Assembly: GCA_021814605.1 (NCBI GenBank)
Contig: JAKAIB010000005.1
Location: forward strand, 1 to 32,020
DNA length: 32,020 bases
Direction: 5' to 3'
Source: Pseudomonadota bacterium
Lineage (GTDB): Bacteria > Pseudomonadota > Gammaproteobacteria > Burkholderiales > Burkholderiaceae_C
Shown here one piece after another: positions 3-28,292 of the stretch. A program made the translations under genes and the position numbers. Position 1 is the stretch's first letter. The number at the start of each line of letters is the position of its first letter. A model generated the notes under the pieces. It ran no database searches. It was not told the DNA's origin and was given only the letters and a program-made list of their open reading frames with translations.

Positions 3-260
3 AACGTCGAGGCGGCGCGGCGCGTGCTCGGCGATCGGGCCGACAAGACCATCCGCGCCTACCGGCTGTATCTGGCCGGATCGGCGATGGGGTTCGAGCA
101 GGGATGGATCTCGCTGTTCCAGATCCTGGGGTCGCGCCCCGACGGTGTGGTCGAGGACCGGTTCGACGCCCACGCCGCGCTGCGTGCCCGGCAGAGCACC
201 TATCCGTTCAACCGCCGCTATATGTATCCGGATCGCAGCTCACCGGATTCCGGCGGCTGA
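3..260 (+). CDS. C-terminal fragment of a cyclopropane-fatty-acyl-phospholipid synthase-like SAM methyltransferase
   Basis: The gene is cut by the left edge of the window, and only its last 85 codons are seen, from the first complete codon to TGA. The segment reading YRLYLAGSAMGFEQGWISLF near the end is typical of the C-terminus of the cyclopropane-fatty-acid synthase family, which uses S-adenosylmethionine to methylenate unsaturated acyl chains of membrane phospholipids. The catalytic domain is outside the window, so membership of the true Cfa group rather than a related SAM methyltransferase cannot be settled. The enolase-like gene begins 43 bases downstream on the same strand, so the two may be co-transcribed. 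Confidence 0.72.
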   Translation, partial: NVEAARRVLGDRADKTIRAYRLYLAGSAMGFEQGWISLFQILGSRPDGVVEDRFDAHAALRARQSTYPFNRRYMYPDRSSPDSGG

Positions 261-303
261 TTCTTCTGGCTTCACAGTCAATTGCCTTGCGTGGGGGAAC
301 TCG

Positions 304-1599
304 ATGATGACTTCGGCTTCACGTCGTTCGATAGCGTTTATCGATGCCATGGAGATCCTCGACTCCAGAGGCAGGCCCACGATCCGGGTCAACGTCATGC
401 TGGATTCCGGCGTGACAGGCTCGGCCGCGGTGCCCAGCGGTGCGTCCCGGGGCAGGCTCGAGGCTCACGAACTGCGCGATGGCGATCTGAAGCGCTACCT
501 TGGTCAAGGCGTACTCAAGGCAGTCGACCATGTGCGCAACGAGATCGCCGTCGATCTGATCGGGCGCGATGCTCGGGAGCAGCCGGCGATCGACCAGCGC
601 CTCATCGAACTCGACGGCACGCCGGACAAGTCGAGGCTTGGCGCCAACGCCATTCTCGGTGTCAGCATGGCGGTCGCACGCGCGGCCGCAGTGGAGTCCG
701 GCGTGCCCCTGTACCGCAATCTGGCGAGCAGCAGCCGGCGCATCATTCCCATGCCCATGTTCAACGTGCTCAACGGCGGGCTGCATGCGCGCAGCAGTGC
801 ATTCGATTTCCAGGAATTCATGCTGGTGCCGGTCGGAGCCCCGAATTTCGCCGAGGCGTTGCGCTACGCTGCGGAGACGTTCCAGGCGTTGGGCAATCTG
901 CTCGCCGCCCTGGGACACTCGACAGCCGTCGGCGACGAAGGCGGATTTGCGCCGCGGATGATGGGTGGGAACGAAGCGGCCTGCGAAACGATCGTCCGTG
1001 CCATCGAGAAGGCAGGCTATCGTCCGGGGGTCGATCTGGCTATCGCGCTCGACCCGGCTGCATCGGGCTTCAGGGTGGACGGCCACTATCGGCTGCACCG
1101 CAGTGGCGATCGCCTGCTCGATACCGCCGGCATGATCGAACTGTTCGAGCGCTGGATTCAGCGATTCCCCATCGTGTCGATTGAAGACGGACTGGCCGAG
1201 GACGATTGGGACGGCTTTGCCGCCATGACGCGCAGGCTCGGCGATCGCATCCAGATCGTCGGCGATGACAATTTCGTGACCAATCCGAGCCTCATCCAGC
1301 GCGGCATCGACCAGAAGAGCGCGAACGCGGCGCTGATCAAGCTGAACCAGATCGGCACGGTCACCGAAACGATCGACGCGGTGCGGCTGTGTCAAAGCGC
1401 CGGATGGCGGACCGTCGTGTCGCACCGCAGCGGCGAAACGGAGGATGCGTTCATCGCAGACTTTGCGGTCGGGGTCGCCGCCGGGCAGATCAAGTCCGGG
1501 GCCTTGTCGCGCAGCGAGCGACTGGCGAAGTACAACCGTCTTCTCGAGATCGAACGGGAGCTCGGCGACGCGGCCGAATTTGTCAATCCTTACCGGTGA
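304..1599 (+). CDS. Divergent enolase (phosphopyruvate hydratase) paralogue
   Basis: This encodes 431 residues, the normal enolase length. Enolase interconverts 2-phosphoglycerate and phosphoenolpyruvate in the cytoplasm. The start is the first of two adjacent ATGs behind a GGGGAA ribosome-binding site. Core residues are kept: GGLHA with the active-site His, QEFM, GDEGG, the metal-binding Asp in ALDPAAS, SIEDG, VGDD, the Lys in LIKLNQIG, SHRSGETED and GQIKSG. Normally conserved positions differ: the N-terminal signature reads SRGRPTIRV instead of SRGNPTVEV, the mobile loop reads GASRG instead of GASTG, and HADN reads HARS. In beta- and gammaproteobacteria the housekeeping eno usually lies by pyrG and ftsB. 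Here it heads an operon with two MutS-like ATPases, so I infer a second, specialised enolase. Catalysis seems possible but is not assured. Confidence 0.9.
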   Translation: MMTSASRRSIAFIDAMEILDSRGRPTIRVNVMLDSGVTGSAAVPSGASRGRLEAHELRDGDLKRYLGQGVLKAVDHVRNEIAVDLIGRDAREQPAIDQRLIELDGTPDKSRLGANAILGVSMAVARAAAVESGVPLYRNLASSSRRIIPMPMFNVLNGGLHARSSAFDFQEFMLVPVGAPNFAEALRYAAETFQALGNLLAALGHSTAVGDEGGFAPRMMGGNEAACETIVRAIEKAGYRPGVDLAIALDPAASGFRVDGHYRLHRSGDRLLDTAGMIELFERWIQRFPIVSIEDGLAEDDWDGFAAMTRRLGDRIQIVGDDNFVTNPSLIQRGIDQKSANAALIKLNQIGTVTETIDAVRLCQSAGWRTVVSHRSGETEDAFIADFAVGVAAGQIKSGALSRSERLAKYNRLLEIERELGDAAEFVNPYR

Positions 1600-6672: not shown

Positions 6673-8640
6673 TCAGACGCTGTCGAGCCTGCGGATGTCC
6701 GCGGCGATGCGGGATACGGAGTCGGCCGGGCACAGCCCGCCTGCGGCGATCGCATGTCGTCTCGCGACGAACGCGGCACCAAGCGCCTGCAGCGCCGCCT
6801 GCCGCCATGCGTCCAGCCGACGTTCGTAGTCGCGCAGCAGCCGTGCGACGCGTTGGTCCAGTCCGCGCTCGCGCATCTCGTGCCGCATGGAGCGAGCCAG
6901 CGCGCCATTGCCCGCGAACGCGACAAGCGGACGGTGCATCCGGAACGGCGGCACTGTGCCGGACGTGTCGATCACCGGGGCGGCCGACGGCAGCGGCAGA
7001 TCATCCGGTATCGTTCCGCCAATGTCCGCCAACGCTGCCCGGACCATTGCGCGCAGATCGCCGAGTTGGCGCGTCGCGGCGACGACAGCCACTCCGGCAC
7101 GCGACCGGACCGAGGCCTCGACCAGGGTCGTGGCGTCGAACTCGTGCGCACGGTTCTCGTTCCAGATCACGGCCGCATTGCGGGCGGATTCCTCGAGCGC
7201 GACGTCCGCCATGTCCGGCAGCTCGGCGAGTTCGGCCGGCGACGCCTGTCGCGCCTGCTCCAGCCGGGCCGACACTTCGGCCGACCGACGTGCCGCTTCG
7301 ATGCGGCGTGGCTCGACGGTCGCCGACTCCCCTTCCGAGGCCGCCAACCGGCGGAGCAACGCCGCCCGCACCGCGTCGCGCAGCAGCGCAACCTTGCGTG
7401 CCAGCGATTCCTCCCCCACCTTCGCCGCGCTGGACAGCAGAGGGCGCAGTTCCCGGTCCATCCACCGTCCGGTCCACTCGCTGCCTGCTGGACGGCTGCT
7501 CACTGGATGGACGGGAAGATCCAGACCGAGCCGATCCACCAGGCGGCGCCGGATGAACTCGAGCGCGTGCGCCCGATCGGCCTCATCCAGCAGATCGGCC
7601 TTGGCAAGCAGCACCTGGACTTTGGCGCCGGTATGCAGCAGCGCATCGATCGCGGCGATGTCGGCGTCGGTCAACGTCGCGGCCGCGTCGATCAGCATCA
7701 GCCCGACGTCGCACCGCGCAATGCATGCCCAGGTTTCGGATGCGGTGGCGGCATCGTCCAGGCCGAGGCCGGGCGTATCCACCAGCGCGATGCCCTCGGC
7801 GAGCAGATCCGCAGGCAGCCGGATCTCCAGATTGCGCACGTGGCGCGCATTGCCGGGGTTCTGCTGGGCGCTGACGAATTCGGCCAGTCGTCCGAGATCG
7901 AACACCTCGGCGATGGCGTCGACGAACTCGACCCGACCGAGCGGCGCCGCGCCGTGGACGATGCGGATGGGCACCTCCGTGACGGGCGTGATCCCGGCGG
8001 GAAGAGGCGTTCCGTCGAGCATTCGGTTGAGCAGCGACGACTTGCCGGCATTGACGCGCCCGAACACGGCGACTTCCAGCCGGGGATCGGCCAGCCGTGC
8101 TTGCAGCACATCGGTCATGCCGCGCAGTCCGGCCAGATCATGAGCCTCGACGATGCGCCGGATCTCGGCCAGCCGGCCCGGCGTATCGCCGACGGGGCCG
8201 ACCGGCAGCGGCCGCGCGGCAAGGAAGGAGTTGGCGCCCTGTGCAAGGTAGGCATCCAGTCGGTCCAGGCACGCCGACAGATCGCTGCTCAACGCGCGCA
8301 GTTCGCGTGCTTCCTCGACGCTCACGTCGTCGTGACGCGCGGGATCGATGTCCGCCACCGCGAGTTGCGCCGCAGTCAACCTCCGGCGGGCAGACAAGAT
8401 CGCACTGACCGTGGCTGGCGCAACGGAGACTCCCAGTCGGTCCAGCGACGTCCGCATGGTGGCGCGCAGATCCCGGACTGCATCCGCAGCCTGGCGTGCC
8501 TGGATCGGCGCCGCGTCGGCGGCGCAGGAGGGGAACAGTCGCTCCCTCGCGTCCGGCCCCAGTCTGTCGATCGCTTCGGTCAGCAGCGCATCGATTCGTT
8601 CCAGCGCGGACAGCAGACGGTGCTGCTGATCGACGTTCAC
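6673..8640 (-). CDS. Dynamin-like GTPase
   Basis: A 655-residue protein. The start chosen is the GTG that overlaps the stop of the MFS gene (GTGA). A helical region of about 185 residues precedes a GTPase domain: G1 GRVNAGKSS at about 194-202, G2 Thr within ITPVTEVP, G3 DTPG at about 287-290, and G4-like AKAD at about 345-348. A long helical region rich in Arg and Ala follows to the C-terminus, as in bacterial dynamin-family proteins, which bind and remodel membranes on GTP hydrolysis. I see no convincing transmembrane helix, so membrane association would be peripheral. G4 is AKAD rather than N/TKxD, a mild deviation that could affect guanine selectivity. It is the last gene of the crcB run. 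Confidence 0.85.
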   Translation of the reverse strand: MNVDQQHRLLSALERIDALLTEAIDRLGPDARERLFPSCAADAAPIQARQAADAVRDLRATMRTSLDRLGVSVAPATVSAILSARRRLTAAQLAVADIDPARHDDVSVEEARELRALSSDLSACLDRLDAYLAQGANSFLAARPLPVGPVGDTPGRLAEIRRIVEAHDLAGLRGMTDVLQARLADPRLEVAVFGRVNAGKSSLLNRMLDGTPLPAGITPVTEVPIRIVHGAAPLGRVEFVDAIAEVFDLGRLAEFVSAQQNPGNARHVRNLEIRLPADLLAEGIALVDTPGLGLDDAATASETWACIARCDVGLMLIDAAATLTDADIAAIDALLHTGAKVQVLLAKADLLDEADRAHALEFIRRRLVDRLGLDLPVHPVSSRPAGSEWTGRWMDRELRPLLSSAAKVGEESLARKVALLRDAVRAALLRRLAASEGESATVEPRRIEAARRSAEVSARLEQARQASPAELAELPDMADVALEESARNAAVIWNENRAHEFDATTLVEASVRSRAGVAVVAATRQLGDLRAMVRAALADIGGTIPDDLPLPSAAPVIDTSGTVPPFRMHRPLVAFAGNGALARSMRHEMRERGLDQRVARLLRDYERRLDAWRQAALQALGAAFVARRHAIAAGGLCPADSVSRIAADIRRLDSV

Positions 8641-9818
8641 GCGGAAGTCCCTTCTGCGCGCGCCACCCGGGAAAACAGCGGCAGCGCGGCGAGCTGGCAG
8701 AGCATGCAGAACGCCACCATCGCCAGGATCGACCACTGGTAGAGTGCGCCAATCACCACGCTGCCGGCGAACCAGGCAATGCCGTAACCGGCAGTGAACA
8801 GGCCATAGGCCGAGGCCCGGCGCGTCGCTGGCACGCGGTGTGCCAGTGCAGCGGGGATCACCGATTCGTGCACGCCCATTCCCAGACCCCAGACGGCGGC
8901 GCCGGCCAGCGCAACGCCGAAGCTGCCGTAGAACACCAGGGGCGCGAACAGGGCGCTGGCCAGCGTGAGGGGAATGAGCACCTTCAGGCCGTGGCGGTCA
9001 TACAGCCGCCCGAACACGACCGATCCGGTTCCCGATACGGCCATCGCGATGGCATAGAGGATCGGAACCCATTCGACTCCAACCGCGCCGTCGCGGTGCC
9101 AGTGGAAGGCGATCAGCGGGTAGTCGGCGAAGCCGGCCGCGACCAGCGCGGCACCGGCGAGGTAGATCCAGAAATCCGAACGCAGACCACGGCCGGCAAG
9201 ATCGACGGGTTCGCCCTCGAGCTCCTGCGGCCGCGGGTAGGTCAGTCGCGCCACGAGCACCAGCGTCAGGTTGAGCGCCGCGGGCACGCCCAGCGCGGCG
9301 TATGCCATGCGGTAGTCGCCCTTGGATGCCAGCACGGCGGCCACCAGCAGTGGACCGAACAGCGCGCCGGTCTGGTCGAGCGCCTCGTGCAATCCGAACG
9401 CCCAGCCGTAGCCACCCAACCGGCGCCCCGCATGCGCCAGCAGGGCGTCGCGCGGTGGGTTGCGCAATGCCTTGCCGACCCGTTCGGCAACCAGCAGCGC
9501 GGCCGCCTGCGGCCAGGTGTGCACCAGCGCCATCGCCGGCACCGACAGCATCTGGATGACGTAGCCGGTAATGATGATCGGCCAGAACGCGCCGGTACGG
9601 TCCGCGGCCGGCCCTGACAGGAGGCGCAGCGCGTAGCCTGCCAGCTCGCCGGCGCCGGTCGTGGCGCTGATCGCGAATGCCGAAGCGCCGAGCACGCCGA
9701 GCCATGGGCCGAGGACGCTGCGCGATCCTTCGTAGGTGAAATCGGCGAAAAAGCTGAGTGCGCCGATGGTGAGGATGAAGGCCAGTGCGCGGCGCTTGAT
9801 CTGGGTGGATTCGGTCAC
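8637..9818 (-). CDS. Major facilitator superfamily transporter
   Basis: A 393-residue inner-membrane protein with about 12 hydrophobic segments. The start is a GTG 5 bases after the upstream phosphatase stop, because the coding pattern begins MTESTQIKRRALAFILTIG and longer frames would run into that gene. The loop after transmembrane segment 2, with SGPAADRTG, and the counterpart GRLYDRHGLKVL in the second half are the paired MFS motif-A-like loops. The sequence AERVGKALRNPPRDALLAHA is characteristic of a subgroup of uncharacterised proteobacterial MFS permeases. The substrate is unknown. It overlaps the GTPase gene by four bases, so the two are translationally coupled. Confidence 0.88.
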   Translation of the reverse strand: MTESTQIKRRALAFILTIGALSFFADFTYEGSRSVLGPWLGVLGASAFAISATTGAGELAGYALRLLSGPAADRTGAFWPIIITGYVIQMLSVPAMALVHTWPQAAALLVAERVGKALRNPPRDALLAHAGRRLGGYGWAFGLHEALDQTGALFGPLLVAAVLASKGDYRMAYAALGVPAALNLTLVLVARLTYPRPQELEGEPVDLAGRGLRSDFWIYLAGAALVAAGFADYPLIAFHWHRDGAVGVEWVPILYAIAMAVSGTGSVVFGRLYDRHGLKVLIPLTLASALFAPLVFYGSFGVALAGAAVWGLGMGVHESVIPAALAHRVPATRRASAYGLFTAGYGIAWFAGSVVIGALYQWSILAMVAFCMLCQLAALPLFSRVARAEGTSA

Positions 9819-9823
9819 GCCGG

Positions 9824-10432
9824 TCAGCGCAGGTGCGCGATATCGTTGACGCTCAGCACCTTCACGGCGCCATCGTCGCCGATGAACAGCTCGTTGATGC
9901 AGCATGGCTCCTGCTCGATGCGCCAGTAGGCCGACAGCGGCATGTCCAGCGCCTGCAGCAGGACGATCCGATTGACGCTGTCATGCGCGACGAGCACGAT
10001 GGTTTCGCCGCGGTGCTGGTCCCGCAGGCCGCGCAGCGCGTCGGCGGTGCGCGAAGCCACGTCCTGCAGAGATTCGCCGCCCGGGAAGCGCATCCATTGC
10101 GGCGCGCTCTTCCAGAGCGCGAATTCCCTGGGGAACTCGGCCAGCGCCTCGGCATGGGTCTTCCATTGCCATTGGCCGTAGTCGAAGTCGTCGATGCCCG
10201 GAAGCACCGTACCGGTGACACCGCAAGCTTCGGCAATGGCGGCGCCGGTGTCGCGGCAGCGCTGCATCGGGCTGGTCAGCACCGCGTCCACCTTGAACCG
10301 ACGCGCGACCGCCGCCGCAAGTGCCTTTGCCTGCCGCCGCCCGGTGTCGGTGAGCGCCAGTTCCATGCGGCCGCGAAAGCGCGGAGGATCGATACCCTCC
10401 ACCTGGCCGTGCCGTGTCAGGACGATGTGCAT
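9824..10432 (-). CDS. Histidine phosphatase family protein (phosphoglycerate mutase-like)
   Basis: A 202-residue cytoplasmic enzyme of the branch that forms a phosphohistidine intermediate. The catalytic RHG box is TRHGQ at residues 6-10 with nucleophile His8, the second active-site His is in VAHDS at about 150, and arginines are present in the expected places (SPMQRCR and others). A GGGGAGA ribosome-binding site precedes the ATG. The family includes cofactor-dependent phosphoglycerate mutases, alpha-ribazole phosphatase and many broad-specificity phosphatases. No cobalamin genes are nearby, so a CobC role has no support and the substrate stays open. It lies 21 bases after the DUF190 gene. 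Confidence 0.88.
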   Translation of the reverse strand: MHIVLTRHGQVEGIDPPRFRGRMELALTDTGRRQAKALAAAVARRFKVDAVLTSPMQRCRDTGAAIAEACGVTGTVLPGIDDFDYGQWQWKTHAEALAEFPREFALWKSAPQWMRFPGGESLQDVASRTADALRGLRDQHRGETIVLVAHDSVNRIVLLQALDMPLSAYWRIEQEPCCINELFIGDDGAVKVLSVNDIAHLR

Positions 10433-10453: not shown

Positions 10454-10768
10454 TCAGGAGCCGCACTGCGCCTGCCAGGAAACGATGTGCCCCCCCGGGA
10501 CCATCTGCCCGATGCGCGGCAGGACGGCCTCGACGACTTCGGGGTCGTCGTAGAACTCGATGACCAGCGGCAGGTGCACATTGAGCCGCAGCAGGTCGTC
10601 GGCATGCACTTCGCCCTTGCTGCCGAAACCGGCGACGCCGCGGAAAACGGTCACGCCGTGGACCTTCTGCTCGCTGTGCAGCAGCCGGAAGATTTCCTGC
10701 ATCAGGTTGTGGCCCTGCACCTTGTCACCTTCCTTGATGTAGATGCGGGCGATCGTCACGGTTTTCAT
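10454..10768 (-). CDS. DUF190 family protein
   Basis: A small soluble protein of 104 residues. It matches the DUF190 pattern: an N-terminal KTVTIARIYIKEGDK strand, GVTVFRGVAGFGSKGEVHADD in the middle, and LPLVIEFYDDPEVVEAVLP near the end, giving a ferredoxin-like fold related to PII-type trimers. Genes of this family often neighbour crcB, and here the ATG overlaps the crcB stop (ATGA). I infer a regulatory or accessory role in fluoride or ion handling; no biochemical function is established that I know of. Confidence 0.88.
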   Translation of the reverse strand: MKTVTIARIYIKEGDKVQGHNLMQEIFRLLHSEQKVHGVTVFRGVAGFGSKGEVHADDLLRLNVHLPLVIEFYDDPEVVEAVLPRIGQMVPGGHIVSWQAQCGS

Positions 10769-11148
10769 GCTGAGACTCCCAGGTTGCGTGACAGGAATGC
10801 ACCGAAGATCGCCGCCGCGATCGACAGCACGACGGACGCAGCCACGTAGAGGGCTGCCTTGGTCAATTCGCCGCCTTCGATGAGATTGAGCGATTCCAGT
10901 GAGAACGTCGAGAACGTGGTGTAGGCCCCGAGTCCGCCAGTGAGCAATCCGGTCCGCAACTCGGGGCTGAGATTGATGCGTTCGAGAGTTTCGAAAAACA
11001 GGAAGCCCATCAAGAACGATCCCAGGATGTTGATGGACAGCGTTGCAAAGGGAAAGTCGCGCCCCAGGAAGCCCTGGACTGCGAGGGTCTGCCCGTATCG
11101 GGCGAAGGCGCCGACGATGGCGAAGATCGCGATGTAGACGTAGGTCAT
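10765..11148 (-). CDS. crcB: CrcB/Fluc fluoride channel
   Basis: A 127-residue protein with four transmembrane segments, the usual size of the dual-topology fluoride channel that exports F- and protects cytoplasmic enolase and pyrophosphatase. Diagnostic motifs are present: GAFARY near the N-terminus, the pore Asn in TLSINILGSFLMGF, and GGLGAYTTFSTFSLE with the two phenylalanines that line the fluoride path. No strong ribosome-binding site is visible and only about 20 bases separate the ATG from an upstream hairpin, so expression may depend on read-through from the Ehr operon or on a promoter inside that region. Confidence 0.93.
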   Translation of the reverse strand: MTYVYIAIFAIVGAFARYGQTLAVQGFLGRDFPFATLSINILGSFLMGFLFFETLERINLSPELRTGLLTGGLGAYTTFSTFSLESLNLIEGGELTKAALYVAASVVLSIAAAIFGAFLSRNLGVSA

Positions 11149-11258: not shown

Positions 11259-13262
11259 TCAGGACGGCGGCGTCCAAGCCAGCGCCACGGCGAAAATGAT
11301 CAGCAGCAGTACGCCGACATAGGCCAGGTAGGCGTTCATCAGACCGTTCTGCAGGAACCGCAGGCGTTCGCTCAACCAGCGCACCGTGCGCACCGCCGGC
11401 TCGAACACCAGGGGACCGAACACCGGCGCCTGCGTGTAGTCGAACTGCAGTTCCTTGAGGAAGTAGGGCTTGCCCTCGAACTGGCGTGCCACTGCGTTGC
11501 GCGGCCGGTACACGAAGCTGTAGAACACGCGCAGCGCGTTGGAGAAGGCCAGCGCGGTGGTCGCCCCGGAATGCGCGGCATAGTCTTCGCCGCCGCACCA
11601 GATCGGCGCTCGGCGCACCGGGAGCCTGCGTCGCGCCCAGAGCAGGACGACGGGGATGACCGCCAGCAGCGGCGTAGCGATCACCAGTTTGGCCGGCGAG
11701 ATGAACGCAAACCCGGCCGACAGCGGCACCAACAGCCAATCATGGATCATGGTTGCCGGTACGCCAGGTTGCGGCCAGGCGGCCGCGTGCATGAGTGGCA
11801 GCCAGGCCACCATGCTGACGGCCATCACCGGGACCGCCAGCCCCGTCACCAGGATCGCCACGCGGGGCAGTCCTCCGAGGTGGGTGGCATGCTTCTGATG
11901 ATGCGCGCCGTGCGGCTCGTTCTGTCCCAGGAGGCCCACGCCGAACAGCTTGACCATGGTCGCCAGCGCGGCTGCGGCGGTGAGCGCGAGTCCCGCGCCC
12001 GCCAGCGCGAGCGCGATACGCGAGCCGTCGCCAGCGAGCCTGAAGTCATGGAACAGGCTCTGGAACAGGTACCACTCGCTGACGAAGCCCGCGGTCGGCG
12101 GCATCGCAGCGAGACTCATCGCGCCGAACACCGCGCCCAGGCCCAGTGTGAACGGAGCGTGGCGCAGGATGGCATTCTGGCGCAGATGATGGCTGCCCTG
12201 TAGCGCCGCAGCGGCGTCGGCCGTGAAGAACAGCGTGCCCTTGGCCAGGCTATGCCCCATCAGGTGCAGCAGCCCGACGATCCACGCCATCGCCGCCAGT
12301 GCGTCCAAGCCGCCGGCGCGGAACACCATCGCCGCGCCCAGCGCGGTGACTGCGACGGCGGCATTCTCCGCCGAAGAGAACGCCAGCAGCCGCCGCCAGT
12401 CGTTCTGCTGAAAGGCGTAGAGGATGGCGAGGATCGCGGTGAATACACCCGCCGCGAGCACGACCACGCCGATCCCGGCCAGCCAGGGTGGCGTTCCCAG
12501 CCATTGCAGCAGCGCGCGACCCAGCGCGAAATAGGCGGCATTCATCACGATCCCCGACATCAGCGCACCGCTCGCTCCGCTGCCGCTGCCATAGGCGCCG
12601 GGATACCACTCGTAGAACGGCAGCAGGCCGAGCTTGGCGCCGAATCCCGCCAGCCAGAGCAGGCCGAGGAAGAACGCGGCAGCCGTGCCGTACCCGCTCC
12701 ATTGCAATGCATAGGAGCCAAAGTCCAGACTCTGGCCCAGCATGATCACCGCCAGCAGCAGCGCCACGCCGCCCACTTCGAGCAGCGCGAGCATGAACAG
12801 GTTGTCGTGTCCGGACTGGGTATTGCGATGCTCGGACAGCAGCATGACGGCCCCGCCGAATCCCATCAGCTCCCAGGCGATCAGGAAGCTCGCCCCGTCC
12901 TGCAGACCGTACACCCCCAGTGCACCGAGGAGCGATAGCGCCGCGCCCGCGGCCCAGCCACGTGGCCGCCCGGCACCGCCGATCAGCACGGCGAAGAGCG
13001 CCGGCAGCAGCGCGGGAAGCATCAGCCAGAGCGCTGCCGCATCCGCGTGGAACTGGACCGGCCAGTTGCCGAACTGCAGTACCGCCACCTGTGCCGTACC
13101 GTCGGGCAAACCCCACAACGCGCCGAGCGCCGCCAGCGCGCAGCCGAGCGCCAGCAGCAGCCGAGGCAGATGCGACCCGGTGAACAGATCGATCGCCAGC
13201 GCCAGCAGCCAGGCCAGCGCGGCGAGCGCGAACGCGCCCAGGCCGATGGTGTCAGCCGGCAT
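11259..13262 (-). CDS. HyfB/HycC-like antiporter-type membrane subunit of an Ehr complex
   Basis: A 667-residue polytopic protein with about 14 or more hydrophobic segments, of the NuoL/MrpA family found in group 4 hydrogenases and complex I. Key charged residues inside membrane segments are kept: the Glu in WELMGFGG, the Lys in GFGAKLGLLPFYEWYP, and the Lys in MGHSLAKGTLFF. The C-terminal part after WCGGEDY resembles the HyfB/HycC tail. It would take part in ion translocation across the inner membrane. It is the last gene of the operon and its start overlaps the preceding gene by 11 bases. Confidence 0.9.
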   Translation of the reverse strand: MPADTIGLGAFALAALAWLLALAIDLFTGSHLPRLLLALGCALAALGALWGLPDGTAQVAVLQFGNWPVQFHADAAALWLMLPALLPALFAVLIGGAGRPRGWAAGAALSLLGALGVYGLQDGASFLIAWELMGFGGAVMLLSEHRNTQSGHDNLFMLALLEVGGVALLLAVIMLGQSLDFGSYALQWSGYGTAAAFFLGLLWLAGFGAKLGLLPFYEWYPGAYGSGSGASGALMSGIVMNAAYFALGRALLQWLGTPPWLAGIGVVVLAAGVFTAILAILYAFQQNDWRRLLAFSSAENAAVAVTALGAAMVFRAGGLDALAAMAWIVGLLHLMGHSLAKGTLFFTADAAAALQGSHHLRQNAILRHAPFTLGLGAVFGAMSLAAMPPTAGFVSEWYLFQSLFHDFRLAGDGSRIALALAGAGLALTAAAALATMVKLFGVGLLGQNEPHGAHHQKHATHLGGLPRVAILVTGLAVPVMAVSMVAWLPLMHAAAWPQPGVPATMIHDWLLVPLSAGFAFISPAKLVIATPLLAVIPVVLLWARRRLPVRRAPIWCGGEDYAAHSGATTALAFSNALRVFYSFVYRPRNAVARQFEGKPYFLKELQFDYTQAPVFGPLVFEPAVRTVRWLSERLRFLQNGLMNAYLAYVGVLLLIIFAVALAWTPPS

Positions 13263-14085
13263 GTTGACCTCCCTGGACCCGCTGCGGCCGGCGGCGCAGC
13301 AGCACCAGCAAACCGTCGATGATCGCAGCCGGGTTGGGCGGACAGCCTGGCAGCCACAGGTCGACGGGCAGGAGTCCGTCCAGTCCTTGATGGCAGGCGT
13401 AGCCGCCGCCGTTGGTTCCGCCGCCGGTGGCGCAGGTGCCCAGCGCCATCACCCAGCGCGGCTGCGGCATCGCTTCCCAGGTGCGCAGCAGGGGCTCGCG
13501 CATGGCCTCGGTCACCGGACCGGTGACCAGCAGCAGATCGGCGAAGCGCGGTGACGGGGTGAAGAAGATGCCCAGCCGGTGCAGGTTGTAGAACGGATTG
13601 AGCAGGGCTTGCAGTTCGCTTTCGCAGCCGTTGCACGAACCGGCATCGACATGGCGGATGTGCAGACTCCGGCCGAAGGCTTTCATCTGTGCGGCGAGCT
13701 CGGCCTCGTCGGCTGCGGCACCGCCGGGCTGCGTCGGCGCCACGCTATTGTGCGTCAGTCCGTCTGCCAACAGATCGGCTCTGTCACGCACGCCGAACGC
13801 CCAGTCGCCGCTGACGGTGAACGCGCCCTGCGGACAGACTTCGGTGCAGATCTGACAGCCGACGCAGCGCGAATAGTCGAGCAGCGGACGGCCTCCTCGG
13901 ACGGCGATCGCCTCGGCCGGGCACGCCGCGGCGCAATCGGTGCAGCTGCCCGTCGTGCCGACGCAGCGCGCCGCGTCCAGCCGCGGCAGGCCGCGCACGT
14001 CATCCTGCCCGTCAGGGCCGGGACGTTGCGGCCAGGGCGTCGTACCGCGGCCTTCGCGCAATCCGAACCAGGTCCATACCGGCAT
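13252..14085 (-). CDS. Fused 2[4Fe-4S] ferredoxin and NuoB/HyfI-like small subunit of an Ehr complex
   Basis: A 277-residue protein with a GAGGAGA ribosome-binding site. Residues 40-90 form a ferredoxin domain with eight Cys: Cys41, 48, 51, 55 (CxxxxxxC-xx-C-xxx-CP, with a widened first spacing) and Cys74, 77, 80, 84 (CVGCQICTEVCP). Residues 140-265 are the 20-kDa complex I / hydrogenase small-subunit domain with all four ligands of the proximal cluster: Cys151 and Cys154 in SCNGCE, Cys218 in GTCA and Cys248 in PGCPP. In classical Hyf and Hyc systems these are separate proteins (HyfH and HyfI), so this is a gene fusion. Electron transfer through three Fe-S clusters looks intact even though the large subunit lacks a Ni-Fe site. 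Confidence 0.9.
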   Translation of the reverse strand: MPVWTWFGLREGRGTTPWPQRPGPDGQDDVRGLPRLDAARCVGTTGSCTDCAAACPAEAIAVRGGRPLLDYSRCVGCQICTEVCPQGAFTVSGDWAFGVRDRADLLADGLTHNSVAPTQPGGAAADEAELAAQMKAFGRSLHIRHVDAGSCNGCESELQALLNPFYNLHRLGIFFTPSPRFADLLLVTGPVTEAMREPLLRTWEAMPQPRWVMALGTCATGGGTNGGGYACHQGLDGLLPVDLWLPGCPPNPAAIIDGLLVLLRRRPQRVQGGQHAG

Positions 14086-14099
14086 CGTCGATCTCCTCG

Positions 14100-15608
14100 T
14101 CAGCGGTCCGCCCCGGCGACGGACAGGCCGAAGCTCGCTTCGTTGATCGCGTAATCCATCATGTTGCTGTCCTGCACCGTGAACGGGAAGACGCGCCAGT
14201 TGGAAAACGACGGATCCTTGATCTTCACCCGCAGCAGCCGCTCGCGCGAGACTTCGAGGTGCACGGCGTAAAGCAGCCCGCCGCGCACGCCCTCGGCCCA
14301 ACCCAGTCCTTCGCCGGCTGTGTCGACGTCCTCGAGCACGTCCCTGCGCAGCACGGGGCCGGGTTTGATGCGCCCCAGGGTCTGGCGAACGATGGCGAGC
14401 GATTCGCGGATCTCCTCCATCCGTACCCGGCTTCGCGCGTGGGCATCGCCGGCGGCCTCGACCGGCACGGAAAACCGCACCTTCCCGTAGTTGGCGTACG
14501 GGTGGTCGCGACGCAGATCGCGGTCGAGGTTGCTGGCTCGCTCGATCGGGCCGGTGGCGCCCTGGTCGAATGCCACCTGGCGCGGCAGCAGGCCGGTGGT
14601 CATCAGCCGGTCAAGGTGACTCCGTGTGGCTTCGAGACGTTGAAGATAGTCGTCGATATCGTGATCGAAGGCGTCGAGCTGGCCGGTGTCGAGGTCTCGG
14701 CGCAGTCCGCCGGGGACGATGAGGCCGCGCAGAAGGCGGCTTCCCGTCAGTCTGGCATTGACCTGCTTGACCCGTTCCTCCAGCCACAGCCCCTGCGCCT
14801 CGCCGACCTTGAGGGTGGTCGTCTTCGACAGATGACCGAGGTAGTGCAGGTGGTTGTACAGTCGTTCGAGTTCGGCGAGGATCACGCGGAGGTATCGTGC
14901 CCGTGGCGGTGCGCGCCAGCCCAGCGCCGCCTCGACCGCCTGCGCATAGGCCAGCGCATGTGCAACAGAATCGATTCCGGACACCCGCTCGGCCAATACG
15001 CTGCCGGCGCGCAGGTCGACGCCCTCGAAGCGCGCCTCCATGCCGCGGTGTTTGTAGAACAGCCGCGGGTGGTAGTGCAGGATGCCTTCGCCGATGTAGA
15101 AGAACAGGAACTGCGCGGACTCGACGATGTCGGCCCGGACCGGCCCGAAAGGCAATCGCTGGATGTCGGGCCCGATCACCTTGGGCACCGCCGGCGGCAT
15201 GGCCTCGCCGCTGCGCGGCACGGCGGCACGATCGAAGTCGTGACGCAGCGGGGGCTGCGCCGGCGCCAGCCCTTCGTGCAGCACAAGCGGATGGGACTCG
15301 GGATGTCCGTCGAAACGGATGCCGTAGAGGTCGTTGATCTCGCGTTCGTACCAGCCCAGCAGTGGCAGTTTGCCGGCGAGGCTGGGCAGCGCGCCGCCTT
15401 GCGGCTTGACACGCCAGAGCGCATAGGGCTGACTCGCGCCCTGGCTGAGGACGTAGCGCACTTCGAGATCCCCACGCGCACCGTGGCATGCATATGCGAA
15501 CTGCATGCGCCCGTGGGCGCTGGACTGCTCGCCCAATGCGGTCAGGAGCGCATCGGCTGCGCCGGGAAGCTCGGCGGCGGCCAGTTCGCGGGTCAGGCAG
15601 TGGCGCAT
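14100..15608 (-). CDS. HyfG/HycE-like large subunit lacking all Ni-Fe ligands (Ehr complex)
   Basis: A 502-residue protein. Residues 1-125 are a NuoC-type 30-kDa domain (GWYEREINDLYGI, residues 85-97, and GHPESHPLV). Residues 140-502 are the NuoD/hydrogenase large-subunit domain. In hydrogenases the first metal motif is RxCGxC-xxx-H. Here it reads RVSGIDSVAH, with Ser210 and Asp213 in place of Cys and His217 kept. The second motif DPCxxC reads DPSFSN at 465-470, with Ser467 and Asn470. All four Ni-Fe cysteines are gone, so H2 chemistry is excluded. The fold, including YKHRGME and GWAEGVRGGLLY, is otherwise well conserved, which argues for selection rather than decay. This is the defining feature of energy-converting-hydrogenase-related (Ehr) complexes, whose substrate is unknown. 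Confidence 0.92.
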   Translation of the reverse strand: MRHCLTRELAAAELPGAADALLTALGEQSSAHGRMQFAYACHGARGDLEVRYVLSQGASQPYALWRVKPQGGALPSLAGKLPLLGWYEREINDLYGIRFDGHPESHPLVLHEGLAPAQPPLRHDFDRAAVPRSGEAMPPAVPKVIGPDIQRLPFGPVRADIVESAQFLFFYIGEGILHYHPRLFYKHRGMEARFEGVDLRAGSVLAERVSGIDSVAHALAYAQAVEAALGWRAPPRARYLRVILAELERLYNHLHYLGHLSKTTTLKVGEAQGLWLEERVKQVNARLTGSRLLRGLIVPGGLRRDLDTGQLDAFDHDIDDYLQRLEATRSHLDRLMTTGLLPRQVAFDQGATGPIERASNLDRDLRRDHPYANYGKVRFSVPVEAAGDAHARSRVRMEEIRESLAIVRQTLGRIKPGPVLRRDVLEDVDTAGEGLGWAEGVRGGLLYAVHLEVSRERLLRVKIKDPSFSNWRVFPFTVQDSNMMDYAINEASFGLSVAGADR

Positions 15609-15609
15609 C

Positions 15610-17067
15610 TCACACGCCTCCCAGCTGCGCTGCAATGCCGGCGAGATGCTGCCAGATTGGCGGCAGCCACCACAGCCCGAGGAGCAGGATCGCCGCAAGC
15701 GCCAAGCCCATCGGCAACACATGGAATGTGCGCAGCCGCAAGTGCGGCGGATGGTCGGGTCTCGGCCCGAAGAACATGGCGCGGAACTTCGAGAGAAATC
15801 CGATGAAGATGATGATCAGCAGGGCCCCCATCCACCAGACCGCCCAGGCATTGCGGCTCGCCATGCCGCCGCGCAGGATCGTCAACTCAGACAGGAACAG
15901 CCCGAACGGCGGCGCCCCGGTGATGGCGATCGCGCCGGCCAGCCAGATCGCACCCGAGCGTGGGAAGAAGCGCAGCACGCGGCGAATGCGGTCCATGTCC
16001 TTGCTCTCGAAGGCATGCATCATGTTGCCGGCACCGAAGAACACCAGGGATTTGGTGAGCGAGTGGTTGAGCATGTGGTAAAGCGCGCCGATCACCCCCA
16101 GCGGCCCGCCGAATCCGAAGCCGAGTGCGATGACTCCCATATGTTCGACGCTGGAATACGCCGCCAGCCGCTTGACGATGGTCTGCCGCGTGATGAACAG
16201 CGCCGCCACCAGCAACGAGAAGGCGCCGAGCACGACCAGCGCGGTGGAGGCAGTGGCCTCGATCGTCGTGCTGCGCAGCACCACGAGGTAGCGCACGATG
16301 CCCAGCATTGCGCAATTGAGCAGCGCACCCGAAAGCATCGCCGACACAGGTGCCGGACCTTCGCTGTGGGCGTCGGGTAGCCAGGTGTGCATCGGTGCCA
16401 GCCCCACCTTGGTGCCGTACCCGACCAGCACCAGCAGAAAGCTGAGCAGCAGCAGCACCGGTTCGGCCTTGGGGGTGATCGCGCCGAAGCTGGCCCAGGT
16501 CATGTCGTATACCGGACCGAGAATGAAGGTGCCGGCCCAGTAGAACAGCACCGTGCCGAGCAGCGCGAGCCCGAGCCCTGCCGAGACGATGACGATGTAT
16601 TTCCACGCCGCCTCGATGCTCTCGGGGGCGCGCTGGAAACCGACCAGGAAAGCACTGACGATGGTCGTGAGGTCGATTGCGATCCAGTACAGCCCCGGAT
16701 TGTTCTGCGCCGGAGCGAGGAACATGGTCAGCGCAAACGCTGCAAACAGCGCGTAGAAGCGGTGCAGGCGCGCCTGCTCGCCATGCATCCAGCGCATGTA
16801 GCCGATGGCGTAGATCGACGCCAGCAGATAGACGATCGCCAGGCAGAACATCACCCATACGCCGAAGCCGTCGAGCAGCAGGTAGCCCTGCAGTGCGGTC
16901 GTACCTTGGGCCGGCGTTGCGGCGAGCAGCACGCAGACCAGCACGAAGTCGACCGCCGCCGCGACGAGGTTCAACGCCTCGGCCACACGCGCGCGGCGCG
17001 ACACCCACGACCCGGCCAGCGCCATGAAGGTGACCACCCAGATCGCGTAGAGCACGGTCCAGATCAT
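15610..17067 (-). CDS. HyfF-like antiporter-type membrane subunit of an Ehr complex
   Basis: A 485-residue polytopic membrane protein of the NuoL/M/N - HyfF family. It contains VGYGTKVGLAPMHTWLPDAH with the conserved transmembrane Lys and the HTWLPDAH signature, then GPAPVSAMLSG and MLNHSLTKSLVFFGAGN with a second membrane Lys. The early-helix acidic residue is Asp within WIAIDLTTIVSA rather than Glu, which I also associate with HyfF. It begins 4 bases after the hyfE-like stop and ends 1 base before the large-subunit start, so the genes are tightly co-transcribed. It is presumably one of two ion-translocating subunits of the complex. Confidence 0.92.
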   Translation of the reverse strand: MIWTVLYAIWVVTFMALAGSWVSRRARVAEALNLVAAAVDFVLVCVLLAATPAQGTTALQGYLLLDGFGVWVMFCLAIVYLLASIYAIGYMRWMHGEQARLHRFYALFAAFALTMFLAPAQNNPGLYWIAIDLTTIVSAFLVGFQRAPESIEAAWKYIVIVSAGLGLALLGTVLFYWAGTFILGPVYDMTWASFGAITPKAEPVLLLLSFLLVLVGYGTKVGLAPMHTWLPDAHSEGPAPVSAMLSGALLNCAMLGIVRYLVVLRSTTIEATASTALVVLGAFSLLVAALFITRQTIVKRLAAYSSVEHMGVIALGFGFGGPLGVIGALYHMLNHSLTKSLVFFGAGNMMHAFESKDMDRIRRVLRFFPRSGAIWLAGAIAITGAPPFGLFLSELTILRGGMASRNAWAVWWMGALLIIIFIGFLSKFRAMFFGPRPDHPPHLRLRTFHVLPMGLALAAILLLGLWWLPPIWQHLAGIAAQLGGV

Positions 17068-17071
17068 CGTC

Positions 17072-17752
17072 TCATCCCACCAGGCGCGTCAGTTCGCGGC
17101 TGCTGGTCGTGCCGACCTCCTTGTGCAGGAAGCGAATCAGCATGCCGAAGGTCGAGACAATGATCAGTAGATCGAACAGGATCACCATCTCCAGCAGCAG
17201 CGGCATGCCGGGCACCAGGATCTGCGATCCGAGGAAGATGCCGTTCTCGATGACCAGCAGCCCCAGGATGGAACTCACCGCCTCGGCGCGCAGAACCAGC
17301 ATCAGGAAGCCGATGAGTTTGAGCGCGAACATGGCCGTCAGCGCCAGCACCGCGATGTTGTCCGCCAGTTGCATGCGCAAACCCAGCCGATGCGCCAGAG
17401 CGTAGGAAAAAACCACCAGCATGGCGCCAAGCACCATGCTGCTCGAGGGCTGCAGCAACGGCGTGAACTCGCGGTTCTGCTTCAGGTCGTTCACGATACG
17501 GATCAGCAGGTAGGGCAGCAGCGTGCCACGGAACAGCACGGTGAGGGCAGCGATGAACACCAGCTCCGGATAATGGCCGTAGATGCCCACAGCCGCGGAC
17601 AAGGCTGCGATCGCCCACGATTCCGCGGCGAAGGCATAGATGTGGTTCTTGATCCAGTGCGAACCGAGCATCACGAACGACAGGATCAGCGCCACGATGA
17701 CCAGCAAGCTGAACAGTGCCTGCGCGATCGGATCGAGATGGAAGATGAGCAT
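17072..17752 (-). CDS. HyfE-like membrane subunit of an Ehr complex
   Basis: A 226-residue membrane protein with about six to seven hydrophobic segments. Length and pattern match HyfE, a small subunit related to NuoK/MrpC: it has an internal RGTLLPYLLIRIVNDL loop, and its C-terminal part, SSILGLLVIENGIFLGSQ, carries the conserved membrane Glu (E-N-G). It sits between the hyfC-like and hyfF-like genes with gaps of 12 and 4 bases. This is the same relative order as in hyf operons. Confidence 0.9.
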   Translation of the reverse strand: MLIFHLDPIAQALFSLLVIVALILSFVMLGSHWIKNHIYAFAAESWAIAALSAAVGIYGHYPELVFIAALTVLFRGTLLPYLLIRIVNDLKQNREFTPLLQPSSSMVLGAMLVVFSYALAHRLGLRMQLADNIAVLALTAMFALKLIGFLMLVLRAEAVSSILGLLVIENGIFLGSQILVPGMPLLLEMVILFDLLIIVSTFGMLIRFLHKEVGTTSSRELTRLVG

Positions 17753-17764
17753 GGCCGGGCCCGT

Positions 17765-18709
17765 TCAGATCTGGCGTGCGATCACGGCAAGGATGGCCAT
17801 CAGGAATGACAGCGCCAGCGGCTCCTGGTAGCGGTAGAAGCGCAGCCGCGACTGCGCCGTGTCGACGACGACCATCACCAGGCCCAACACCAGCCACTTC
17901 GCCAGCAGCGCGACCAGCGCCCCGACGATACCGATCGCGCTACCCAGGTGCGACAGCCCCCACGGCAGGGTCAGCACGTTGAGGAAGATGGTGTAGAGGA
18001 TGGCCTGCTTCATCCACGAGGCCCACTTCAGCAGCGCCAGCAGCGGCCCAGAGTACTCGAGGATGCGCGCCTCGCCGATCATGTAGATCTCGTAATGGAT
18101 CGAGGAATGGATCGGCAGGCGCTCGGTCTCGACGGTCAGCAGGATGAAGAATGCAGCAACGAGGAACAGGTGCGCCGGGCTCCAGAACACCGCCGGCTGG
18201 GCGACCAGCAGGTGGTTGACGACAAATGGAAGCATGGCCTGCGCCAGGAGCGTGATGCCGACGAACACCATGATCAGCGTCGGCTCGGCGAGGATGGCGA
18301 GCATCGCCTCGCGGCTCGAACCCAGGCCGCCGTAGGGATGGCCGCTGTCCAGCCCGGCGAGCAGGATGGCGAAGCCGCCAAGGGTCAGGATCAGCCCGCC
18401 GCCGAGAATATCTCCCATGTCCGACAGCGGCAGCGGGTAGTCTGTGAGCACCGGGATCAGAATGGGCACGGTCAGCATGGCTGTGCAAGCTACCACCGGT
18501 GCCATCCAGAACACCCAGGACGCGGTCGCCGGAACAACGATTTCCTTGCCGGCGAGTTTGTACAGGTCGCGGTACGGCTGCCAGATAGACGGGCCGGTGC
18601 CGCGCTGGACACGCTCCTCGAGGGTTGCGATCACCCCGTGCAGCAACGGCGCAAACAGCGCGATGGTCAGAACCTGCGCGATTTGCTGAAGGACAACATG
18701 ACCTTCCAT
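17765..18709 (-). CDS. HyfC/NuoH-like membrane anchor subunit of an Ehr complex
   Basis: A 314-residue polytopic protein of the complex I ND1 (NuoH) / HycD / HyfC family, which anchors the soluble Fe-S arm to the membrane. Motifs include EERVQRGTGPSIWQPYRDLYKL, split as EERVQRGTGPSIW and QPYRDLYKLAGKE, plus LGSSREAMLAILAEPTLI and VETERLPIHSSIHYEIYMIG, all equivalent to conserved quinone-cavity loops in NuoH. The ATG was chosen because a GGGGGG run sits just upstream; a longer frame begins 18 codons earlier without a clear site. It is the first gene of the Ehr operon. Confidence 0.9.
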   Translation of the reverse strand: MEGHVVLQQIAQVLTIALFAPLLHGVIATLEERVQRGTGPSIWQPYRDLYKLAGKEIVVPATASWVFWMAPVVACTAMLTVPILIPVLTDYPLPLSDMGDILGGGLILTLGGFAILLAGLDSGHPYGGLGSSREAMLAILAEPTLIMVFVGITLLAQAMLPFVVNHLLVAQPAVFWSPAHLFLVAAFFILLTVETERLPIHSSIHYEIYMIGEARILEYSGPLLALLKWASWMKQAILYTIFLNVLTLPWGLSHLGSAIGIVGALVALLAKWLVLGLVMVVVDTAQSRLRFYRYQEPLALSFLMAILAVIARQI

Positions 18710-18825
18710 CGACCCCCCCATGGCACAAGCACGCCGCGCGCGGCGGCACCGGGTAGGAGTCATCAGCCGCAGGCGCGGTGCCGACGGCAGTTATGGCGAA
18801 CTCCATCGCCATCGATCTGCGGCAA

Positions 18826-18855
18826 AGTCTAAAAGGACGATGGCAATCTAGTCAA
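18826..18855 (-). promoter_or_regulatory. Candidate sigma70-type promoter of the Ehr operon
   Basis: On the minus strand, TTGACT (18855-18850) and TAGACT (18831-18826) are separated by 18 bases, in an AT-richer patch about 118 bases before the hyfC-like ATG. No FNR-type or NtrC-type site is seen nearby. The prediction is by eye only. Confidence 0.45.
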
Positions 18856-21777: not shown

Positions 21778-23049
21778 CTAGACAAACTGGATAGCGCGCT
21801 GCCGCGGTGCCATCAATTGGTCCGTGGCTTTGATCTGGGCTGCCGACCTGCGGGTGCCTCCATCAGCGGGTACGACCTCGATGACGCGTTCGGCGATGAG
21901 CTGGCCCACAGATTCTCGGTAGATTTGCGCCGAAGCCGGAGAACTGTTGCAAGTGGTGGCGAACAACTCGCCGAAGCTGATGCCGGTGTCGTCGGCGTAT
22001 ACCCGGCGCGGGATGTGCTCGTTGAGGGCCGCGATGCTCGCGTTCTTAGCCACGTCGTCGAACTCGAAGCCCAGAGCCGACTGCTTGCGGTACTGCGCGT
22101 CGTGCGCCGGGTCGTATCCGACCATCTGGAACATGTCGAGGCCGGCGCCGCCGTAGTGGATGAAGTAGTTGTTGTTGGCCCAGTGCACTTCGGTCATCAC
22201 GTCACGAGCGCGATGGTGCTGCGACATGTGGATGAGCCAGTAGTCGCCGTGGCCGCCGCTATTGCGGATGAAGAACGGCGTGAAATGCCGGGCACCGCAG
22301 TTCTCCACCAGCCGGCGGTACAGCGTACTTTGAAGGAATAGCCGCCAATCGCGGTCTGAGGTCTTGATCTCTTCGATGGACCTGCCCGCGAAGATGTCGG
22401 GCAGTCCGAGCCCGTCTAACAGGTCCTTGACCTGGTCGCCATCGTTGGCGAAATTCATGAACGAGTCGACACCGAAGGTGAGGATCACCTCCGCGCTGGG
22501 CAGCGCCTCGAAAATCTTGCGCATAAGGTGCGTCGGCACCTCTTTGTAGCCGTACTGGTCCAGCGCGAAAATCGATCGGCCGTTCCTCGGGCTCTTCTTT
22601 TTGATGAAGTCGATGATGGCGTCAGCCTTGTCCTGGAATCTCGCGTGTTCCAGATAGATGCCGTTTCCAATGCGGTCGCCGTAACCGGCCTCGCGCAGCA
22701 CCATATCGAGGTGCTTGTGGGCGTACGAGTCGGCCTCGGTGAAGAAGTAATCGACGAGCAGTTGGACCGGCTTGTGCCGGTCCTTGTTGATCAGGTACTC
22801 GGCCTCGCGGGTCGCTTCTAGAAAAATGAAGGGCGATCCCTTGACCAACTCGCGAGTGTCCTGGTGGACGTAGAGGCCACCGCCCGCGAACCCGTCTACG
22901 AGGGTCAGCTTGAGGGTGTCGCGATTGGGCGAGCTAACGAGGGTTCGGAAGTAGGCGGCGAGGTAGGCCCGAAGGATGCGGTGTTTGGCAACGCTGTGCT
23001 GCTGGATGAAGTCAGCTCCGTCCTTCCAGTTGTATTGCTTCAGCGTCAT
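21778..23049 (-). CDS. tcmP: TcmP-like protein (three-Cys-motif partner), copy 2
   Basis: A 423-residue protein starting 8 bases after the Gp37/Gp68-like stop, with GAAGGA upstream of its ATG. It shows the family layout: SVAKHRILRAYLAAYFRTL, then LTLVDGFAGGGLY, a Rossmann-like strand similar to class I SAM enzymes, then ALDQYGYKEVP and VILTFGVDSFMNF. TIGRFAM-style definitions place TcmP beside Gp37/Gp68 proteins, and that pairing is seen here. The reaction is unknown; modification of a nucleic acid or peptide has been suggested by context only (inference). Confidence 0.82.
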   Translation of the reverse strand: MTLKQYNWKDGADFIQQHSVAKHRILRAYLAAYFRTLVSSPNRDTLKLTLVDGFAGGGLYVHQDTRELVKGSPFIFLEATREAEYLINKDRHKPVQLLVDYFFTEADSYAHKHLDMVLREAGYGDRIGNGIYLEHARFQDKADAIIDFIKKKSPRNGRSIFALDQYGYKEVPTHLMRKIFEALPSAEVILTFGVDSFMNFANDGDQVKDLLDGLGLPDIFAGRSIEEIKTSDRDWRLFLQSTLYRRLVENCGARHFTPFFIRNSGGHGDYWLIHMSQHHRARDVMTEVHWANNNYFIHYGGAGLDMFQMVGYDPAHDAQYRKQSALGFEFDDVAKNASIAALNEHIPRRVYADDTGISFGELFATTCNSSPASAQIYRESVGQLIAERVIEVVPADGGTRRSAAQIKATDQLMAPRQRAIQFV

Positions 23050-23057
23050 GCGTTCCT

Positions 23058-23804: not shown

Positions 23805-23843
23805 GATGAGGCCCTCCTAGTCCTTCAAAGTCAGTGCAGGCGT

Positions 23844-26342: not shown

Positions 26343-26386
26343 TCGCTAATTTCGCATCAATAGCGATAATTTCGCACTAATTACGC
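26343..26386. promoter_or_regulatory. Phased AT-rich repeats between lipA and the uncharacterised gene
   Basis: TAATTTCGCA occurs at 26347-26356 and again at 26367-26376, exactly 20 bases apart, and a partial third copy TAATTACGC overlaps the lipA stop at 26378-26386. The second copy sits in an inverted repeat GCGA-TAATT-TCGC (26363-26375), and TCGCTA/TAGCGA arms frame the first (26343-26366). The two-helical-turn phasing suggests cooperative protein binding, either an operator for the gene transcribed leftward from here or a recombination site. Confidence 0.5.
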
Positions 26387-28227: not shown

Positions 28228-28292
28228 TCGCTGTCGTCGCGGCGCAGCCGGCCTCGCGCCAGCCGTCGAGCCGGTTGCGGGGGTCGGGTCGG

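Follow-up and report, generated by a model that had tools for sequence, protein, structure and literature searches.

What might a membrane complex built like hydrogenase-4 do for its cell once the large subunit has lost the nickel-iron (NiFe) site, and what switches its genes on? The question is raised by an operon on a 32,020-nucleotide stretch of DNA from a Pseudomonadota bacterium (Burkholderiales, Burkholderiaceae_C; assembly GCA_021814605.1, contig JAKAIB010000005.1, positions 1 to 32,020), hereafter the window. The first-pass annotation of this DNA had described an Ehr-type complex. The sequence supports that assignment (a group 4-like large subunit, no NiFe ligands, antiporter-type subunits), but the annotation stopped at 'unknown substrate' and did not see a fluoride riboswitch upstream of the operon or the fluoride-resistance genes nearby. 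We are close to certain that the operon encodes a fluoride-regulated complex lacking the NiFe cysteines. Ehr complexes themselves are already known; what is new here is that one of them is tied to fluoride stress.

By calling of open reading frames (ORFs), the minus strand between 11259 and 18709 consists of exactly six adjoining ORFs, and their Pfam and NCBIfam matches (NuoH/HyfC, HyfE, HyfF, NuoCD/HycE, ferredoxin-NuoB and HyfB) bear out the hydrogenase-4-like operon that had been placed there. The NCBIfam matches mostly lie below the curated equivalog cut-offs, and thus denote kin rather than certified members. In the direction of transcription, the leader and the operon comprise:

18826..18855, minus strand: promoter-like site, TTGACT, 18 nt, TAGACT (9/12 matches in a consensus scan; 1 found against 0.2 in shuffles)
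18747..18819, minus strand: fluoride riboswitch aptamer RF01734 (Rfam, 56.2 bits, gathering score 34, E 3.5e-13; the match spans the full model, positions 1 to 64)
17765..18709, minus strand: HyfC/NuoH-like membrane subunit (314 amino acids; PF00146, 109 bits; top solved-structure match subunit 4 of formate hydrogenlyase (FHL), E 1.7e-33)
17072..17752, minus strand: HyfE-like membrane subunit (226 amino acids; NF008556, 53.8 bits with a cut-off of 136; no Pfam match)
15610..17067, minus strand: HyfF-like antiporter-type subunit (485 amino acids; PF00361, 162.8 bits; Lys/Glu/His in common with E. coli HyfF)
14100..15608, minus strand: NuoCD/HycE-like large subunit without the NiFe cysteines (502 amino acids; PF00346, 136 bits; PF00329, 53 bits)
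13252..14085, minus strand: small subunit, a two-cluster ferredoxin domain fused to a NuoB/HycG-like proximal-cluster domain (277 amino acids; PF01058, Fer4 families)
11259..13262, minus strand: HyfB-like antiporter-type subunit (667 amino acids; PF00361, 83 bits; NF005086, 269.8 bits with a cut-off of 667)

The aptamer is separated from the ATG of the first gene, at 18709, by 37 bases. The promoter-like site directly precedes it, a consensus match that is not evidence of function, and the fold of the leader RNA scored no better than shuffles. Matches to two other RNA families, chrB-a and aceE-II, were weak, below their gathering scores, and were set aside. To place the riboswitch in a wider context we used a pattern scan of one genome per species (84,980 species), whose best 80 of 83 loci, together with the window, make up the 81 loci that we call clade A. 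Their hosts include Thiomonas, Halothiobacillus, Paraburkholderia, Caballeronia, Mesorhizobium, Sphingobium, Pollutimonas, Acidobacteria and many metagenome-assembled genomes, and many of the names hint at acid habitats, where stress by hydrogen fluoride (HF) is greatest. The Rfam aptamer precedes the operon in 7/7 further clade-A loci scanned. A model built from 19 clade-A aptamers (R1) and run on all 81 loci found an aptamer on the operon's strand, 2.4-4.6 kb ahead of the large-subunit gene, in 66 of the 67 testable loci, that is, those with at least 3.6 kb of DNA upstream of this gene; the other 14 of the 81 are cut by contig ends. At the sole exception (L102), a match some 3.2 kb upstream reached no more than 22.7 bits. 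Given that some clade-A loci are close kin, and that two of them (L103 and L104) are contigs of one genome, we also counted after de-replication, which left an aptamer in 40/41 testable clusters at 80% identity and in 18/19 at 70%. R1 misses divergent aptamers: one locus (L171) scored 20.2 bits by R1 and 47 bits by Rfam.

The loss of the NiFe site is equally consistent. The first motif, which the first-pass annotation had read as RVSGIDSVAH, was correctly located, since in the alignment RVSGIDS (14987-14967, residues 208-214) falls on the RVCGICG motif that E. coli HyfG and HycE share. The second had been sought in DPSFSN (residue 465), whose counterpart in HyfG is RAATYAN instead; the segment that aligns with DPCYSC of HyfG/HycE is GLSVAG (14129-14112, residues 494-499), and the same alignment rules out NEASFG. 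The claim that all four NiFe cysteines are lost therefore holds, with its second motif moved: Ser210, Asp213, Ser496 and Gly499 occupy the four positions. Across the clade-A alignment the cysteines are missing in all 80 rows that can be read at motif 1 and in 81/81 at motif 2, and because the loss is identical in so many loci, sequencing error or a pseudogene is ruled out as its cause. Going by these residues, the complex is unable to bind a NiFe centre through the known ligands.

The rest of the subunit retains its family resemblance. Its top solved-structure match is FHL subunit 5 (E 7.4e-47), ahead of 6u8y_L from the archaeal Mbs/Mbx relatives, which lack the cysteines too (E 3.4e-24), and its predicted fold is nearest to HycE (7z0s_E, Z 38.0, root-mean-square deviation 3.1 over 477). 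The structure model has a mean confidence (pLDDT) of 82.6, with residues 481-502, including the vacated motif 2, below 50, so the vacated cavity is not readable from it. At the His/His/Tyr positions that we take to be the quinone site of complex I, clade A has R, V/L/M and G/A (20 rows compared with one NuoCD row).

HypD is required to build the NiFe centre. It was absent from the search results in 20 of the 30 clade-A host genomes searched, for which completeness is not stated; the window's own genome has HypD at two places and, at other positions, encodes two large subunits that match NiFe hydrogenases strongly. E. coli FdhF, HycI, HyfR, FocB and HypB matched in 0/81 loci at E 1e-6, with flanks of at most 10 kb and a search that distant formate dehydrogenases could escape. 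In E. coli fdhF lies apart from the hydrogenase operon, and loci without FdhF are thus weak evidence.

The Fe-S ligands are intact in clade A. All 12 iron-sulfur (Fe-S) cysteines of the small subunit, eight in the ferredoxin domain and four for the proximal cluster, are invariant in 81/81 loci, the latter four aligning with E. coli HyfI throughout, and these sequences reach down to about 53% identity in the large subunit. PF00361 is present in two operon subunits, and the Lys, Glu and His residues that HyfB, HyfF and HyfC have in common with their E. coli Hyf counterparts hardly vary among the rows long enough to compare (74, 76 and 68, respectively). Both HyfB and HyfF are kept wherever the contig permits. 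The first-pass annotation was thus right about the conservation of the Fe-S subunit. In terms of residues, the clade-A complex keeps the ligands of three [4Fe-4S] clusters together with two antiporter-type subunits.

Is the riboswitch a property of all such complexes, or of one lineage? Clade B, a sister group whose large subunits are likewise without the cysteines, is 30-40% identical to clade A, carries motifs such as RISGDST and NLSYSG, and is common in the same order. R1 gave no match of at least 25 bits at 25/25 clade-B loci (about 12-20 kb each), the two weak matches scoring 20.1 and 18.1; this control also rests on Rfam searches of whole genomes, which filter more strictly and miss weak matches. 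In a survey of the order (200 genomes), the aptamer was found at all three untruncated clade-A places and at one further place (G010:C40). In 12 genomes a fluoride riboswitch over the cut-off occurs somewhere, though not at the large-subunit place. Three genomes, the window's own (G000), G010 and G045, have the aptamer at their A or A2 operon (see below) and not at a second, B-type operon. In a survey of the class (369 genomes), the searches gave 27 over-cut-off riboswitch places in 21 genomes and 74 large-subunit-like places, and 10 of the 27 riboswitches precede such a large subunit. Sorted by identity, the aptamer precedes 7/7 large subunits at 57% or more (clade A), 3/5 at 38-39% and 0/62 of the others. 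Among the genomes sorted as 'other' in the two surveys, only part of the large subunits was read, and those placed in the tree belong to clade B. Clade A2 consists of the three riboswitch-linked places at 38-39%, G010:C40 and G346:C53, the aptamer of G346:C53 scoring below the gathering score (24.5 bits); the fifth place at this identity (G354:C30) falls in clade B. Counting ten riboswitch-linked large subunits from the class survey and three from the order survey (G190, G045:C69 and G010:C40), 13/13 are without cysteine at all four positions. The B-type large subunit of the window's own genome (G000:C243:14776-15855; L045, L179) lies at a contig end; its motifs and its place in the tree identify a second complex without the cysteines and rule out NuoD of complex I.

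The trees agree with this division. In a maximum-likelihood tree of 61 rows, A (20) and A2 (5) form one branch (support 100/98), B (30) is separate (100/100) and HyfG/HycE types (5) make a third (100/99). In a tree of 34 rows, which leaves out NuoCD and takes in plasmid relatives, A, A2 and a homologue from Mycobacterium branderi group together (99/99), and the fluoride label needs one change. Long branches lead to NuoCD and to the A-A2 join in the first tree and to M. branderi in the second. As far as these sequences tell, the large subunits linked to fluoride all belong to a single branch that spans Pseudomonadota, Acidobacteriota and Actinomycetota. The first-pass annotation had raised the possibility that the large subunit nests among active group 4 hydrogenases; this is ruled out by its well-supported separation, in both trees, from the active types, represented by five HyfG/HycE-type rows only. 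Gene order, written with LS and SS for large and small subunit, follows the same lines: C-E-F-LS-SS-B in 69 of the 81 A loci (the remaining 12 hold truncated stretches of this order) and likewise in A2; clade B has B-C-E-F-LS-SS in 23 of 28 stretches, with five variants.

Copies of the complex also occur on plasmids. That of M. branderi has the same gene order; a fluoride aptamer precedes the operon, separated from it by a single NUDIX gene, and genes for enolase, a DUF190 protein and an MFS transporter lie behind the operon. The DUF190 protein next to this complex (L193, 14668-15747) has 360 amino acids, which makes it roughly three times as long as usual, and by eye apparently consists of repeated DUF190-like units. 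Burkholderia plasmids carry copies too, one of them on a plasmid predicted to be conjugative, and the aptamer precedes the operon in 3/3 Burkholderia/Caballeronia plasmid loci examined. The aptamer search found none at plasmid relatives in Rhodococcus and Allomeiothermus. One predicted conjugative plasmid (L189, NZ_CP073671.1 93094-112503) has seven fluoride riboswitches within 19 kb, in an island with genes for pyrophosphatase, a HAD hydrolase, a DUF190 protein, the complex, crcB, a histidine phosphatase and a CLC-family protein.

The company that the operon keeps points in the same direction. In the window, four genes follow downstream of it, and enolase and MutS-like genes lie at the left end:

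10765..11148, minus strand: crcB, Fluc fluoride channel (PF02537, 92.6 bits)
10454..10768, minus strand: DUF190 protein (PF02641, 93.7 bits)
9824..10432, minus strand: histidine phosphatase (PF00300)
8637..9905, minus strand: MFS transporter (PF07690)
1389-3242 and 2480-4756, plus strand: two overlapping ORFs with MutS domain V (PF00488, 60.9 and 41.1 bits)
145..1599, plus strand: enolase (PF00113, 359.5 bits)

Enolase is a fluoride-sensitive step. A census of neighbours by tblastn, covering 81 stretches of A, 5 of A2 and 28 of B, placed CrcB near 40/81, 3/5 and 0/28, respectively. In the same sequence the counts are 32/81, 0/5 and 0/28 for enolase, 27/81, 0/5 and 0/28 for MutS-like proteins, 23/81, 1/5 and 0/28 for the MFS family, 15/81, 0/5 and 0/28 for CLC, 7/81, 0/5 and 0/28 for pyrophosphatase, and 11/81, 0/5 and 2/28 for the histidine phosphatase family. 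At least one of CrcB, CLC, enolase and pyrophosphatase is found near 60/81 stretches of A, 3/5 of A2 and 0/28 of B. A dynamin-family GTPase (PF00350; 6673-8736, minus strand) also lies inside the island of the window, and dynamin-family genes adjoin the pyrophosphatase gene in fluoride islands of two Burkholderia plasmids. Further along the minus strand, the window has a GMT-like winged helix-turn-helix protein, a DUF5131 protein and an S24 peptidase in overlapping ORFs (21778-24434), likely of a mobile or defence type, and an unusual pair (26381-28854) of a radical-SAM lipoyl synthase-like gene and a protein with a lipoate ligase domain in its C-terminal half only.

Food for speculation is what the complex would do under fluoride. 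We incline, by a modest degree, towards a fluoride-induced, redox-driven proton pump that would compensate for the protons brought in as HF enters and fluoride is exported. Cytosolic fluoride would turn the operon on through the riboswitch. HF would diffuse in and give H+ and F-, the latter leaving via Fluc (crcB) or CLC-F, a cycle that would amount to a net inward flow of protons and cost proton motive force; a review has fluoride entry acidifying the cytosol and export spending proton motive force (PMC11139923). Electrons could enter at the ferredoxin domain (the donor perhaps being reduced ferredoxin), pass to the proximal cluster and end at an acceptor in the vacated NiFe cavity, and the energy could drive H+ (or Na+) outward through the HyfC/E/F/B arm. 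Such pumping might restore the cytosolic pH and the membrane potential that powers fluoride export. We favour this model because of the riboswitch, the company of fluoride genes, the single branch, the 12 Fe-S cysteines and the conserved Lys, Glu and His of the antiporter-type subunits.

Several points weigh against the pump. The residues of complex I for quinone are replaced in clade A, and hence we do not claim quinone as the acceptor; nor was a donor or acceptor gene travelling with the operon found in the 81 loci. Pumping itself we infer from residues. Matches to the ferredoxin domain came from A alone, none from the A2 small subunits, and the small subunit of M. branderi has only six cysteines, so that input from ferredoxin cannot be general. 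Finally, the clade-B complex of the window's own genome stands outside fluoride control, and pumping alone therefore leaves unexplained why a separate clade would be needed.

Alternatively, the complex may act as a redox valve: with enolase and other enzymes blocked by fluoride, surplus electrons would go from ferredoxin-like carriers to an acceptor, pumping being secondary. The intact Fe-S chain would serve this well, as would the presence of the fluoride-sensitive enolase in 32/81 loci, and the review reports the loss of glycolytic and tricarboxylic acid cycle intermediates under fluoride (PMC11139923). A pure valve, however, would have no need of HyfB and HyfF, which are always kept where the contig permits, charged residues included, and we consider this account unlikely.

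Rather less probable is a redox-free, Mrp-like antiporter of Na+/H+ or H+ in which the Fe-S part is merely structural. Na+/H+ antiporters are common among riboswitch-linked genes according to the same review (PMC11139923), HyfB and HyfF share a Pfam family with Mrp subunits, the NiFe site is gone, and A2 and M. branderi retain only some of the ferredoxin ligands or none. A structural role is hard to reconcile with 12 cluster cysteines that stay invariant throughout clade A, down to about 53% large-subunit identity.

We give very little credence to the complex being a primary redox-driven fluoride exporter, or coupling electron transfer directly to F-/H+ exchange; if true, active fluoride pumping run by electron transport would be seen here for the first time. 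It is also highly improbable that the operon is a passenger between the riboswitch and crcB. In the window crcB and the DUF190 gene do follow on the same strand, as such a passenger would require; yet the riboswitch precedes the complex in 66/67 testable loci while CrcB was found in just 40/81 stretches, and the association recurs in A2 and on the M. branderi plasmid. A true FHL, oxidising formate and releasing H2 under fluoride, has the kinship to HycE/HyfG, the best solved and fold matches and the wording of two papers (PMC2864571, PMC11139923) on its side, but with its NiFe ligands missing, FdhF, HycI, HyfR, FocB and HypB unmatched, HypD not found in 20/30 host genomes and a branch apart from HyfG/HycE, we see scarcely any chance for it.

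Within the complex I superfamily, Ehr-type complexes are widespread orphans, and the fluoride riboswitch supplies one whole branch of them with an inducer, a testable phenotype and a physiological frame. Moreover, 13/13 riboswitch-linked complexes without NiFe ligands call into question the reading, repeated since 2010, that FHL and fermentation belong to the fluoride response. If the pump model is true, fluoride resistance would have an arm of energy supply besides export and enzyme replacement, which would bear on acid-living and defluorinating bacteria.

How does the complex compare with known systems? Two papers define Ehr by the absent NiFe ligands and give no confirmed function (PMC6349859, PMC10284858). 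The complex of the window fits this group with its group 4-like large subunit without NiFe ligands, its proximal-cluster subunit and its antiporter-like subunits; it departs from Ehr in having the fluoride riboswitch and the company of fluoride genes and, in clade A, a ferredoxin domain fused to the small subunit. From the sister clade B it differs in the place of HyfB, last in the gene order of clade A and first in that of B. No link between Ehr and the fluoride riboswitch was recognised in the openly accessible literature searched, judged mostly from search results. With hydrogenase-4 and FHL (E. coli Hyf and Hyc) it shares the set of HyfB, C, E, F, G and I and the fold of the large subunit, whereas clade A has none of the four NiFe cysteines, no formate dehydrogenase, protease or activator was found in its loci, and a third antiporter of the HyfD type is absent, judged from gene order alone. 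Complex I has the core of NuoCD, B and H and the antiporter folds in common with it; unlike complex I, clade A has a homologue of the NADH module (NuoEFG) in 0/81 loci, and the quinone positions named above are replaced.

As in the known fluoride riboswitch regulon, the RF01734 aptamer is accompanied by CrcB, CLC, enolase, pyrophosphatase, MutS-like and DUF190 neighbours. The crcB motif was reported upstream of mutS, of ion transport genes and of genes for 'formate hydrogen lyase' (Weinberg 2010, PMC2864571), a link that is repeated in a 2021 paper (PMC8004769) and likewise named in a 2024 review (PMC11139923). The first-pass annotation had warned that automatic annotation would mislead, and indeed one relative is labelled 'nickel-dependent hydrogenase large subunit'. 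In contrast to the published lists, the riboswitch-linked hydrogenase-like genes found here belong to one clade without the NiFe cysteines and not to FHL. If, as we infer, they are the same genes, the 'formate hydrogenlyase' genes of the fluoride literature are probably complexes of this kind under a mistaken label.

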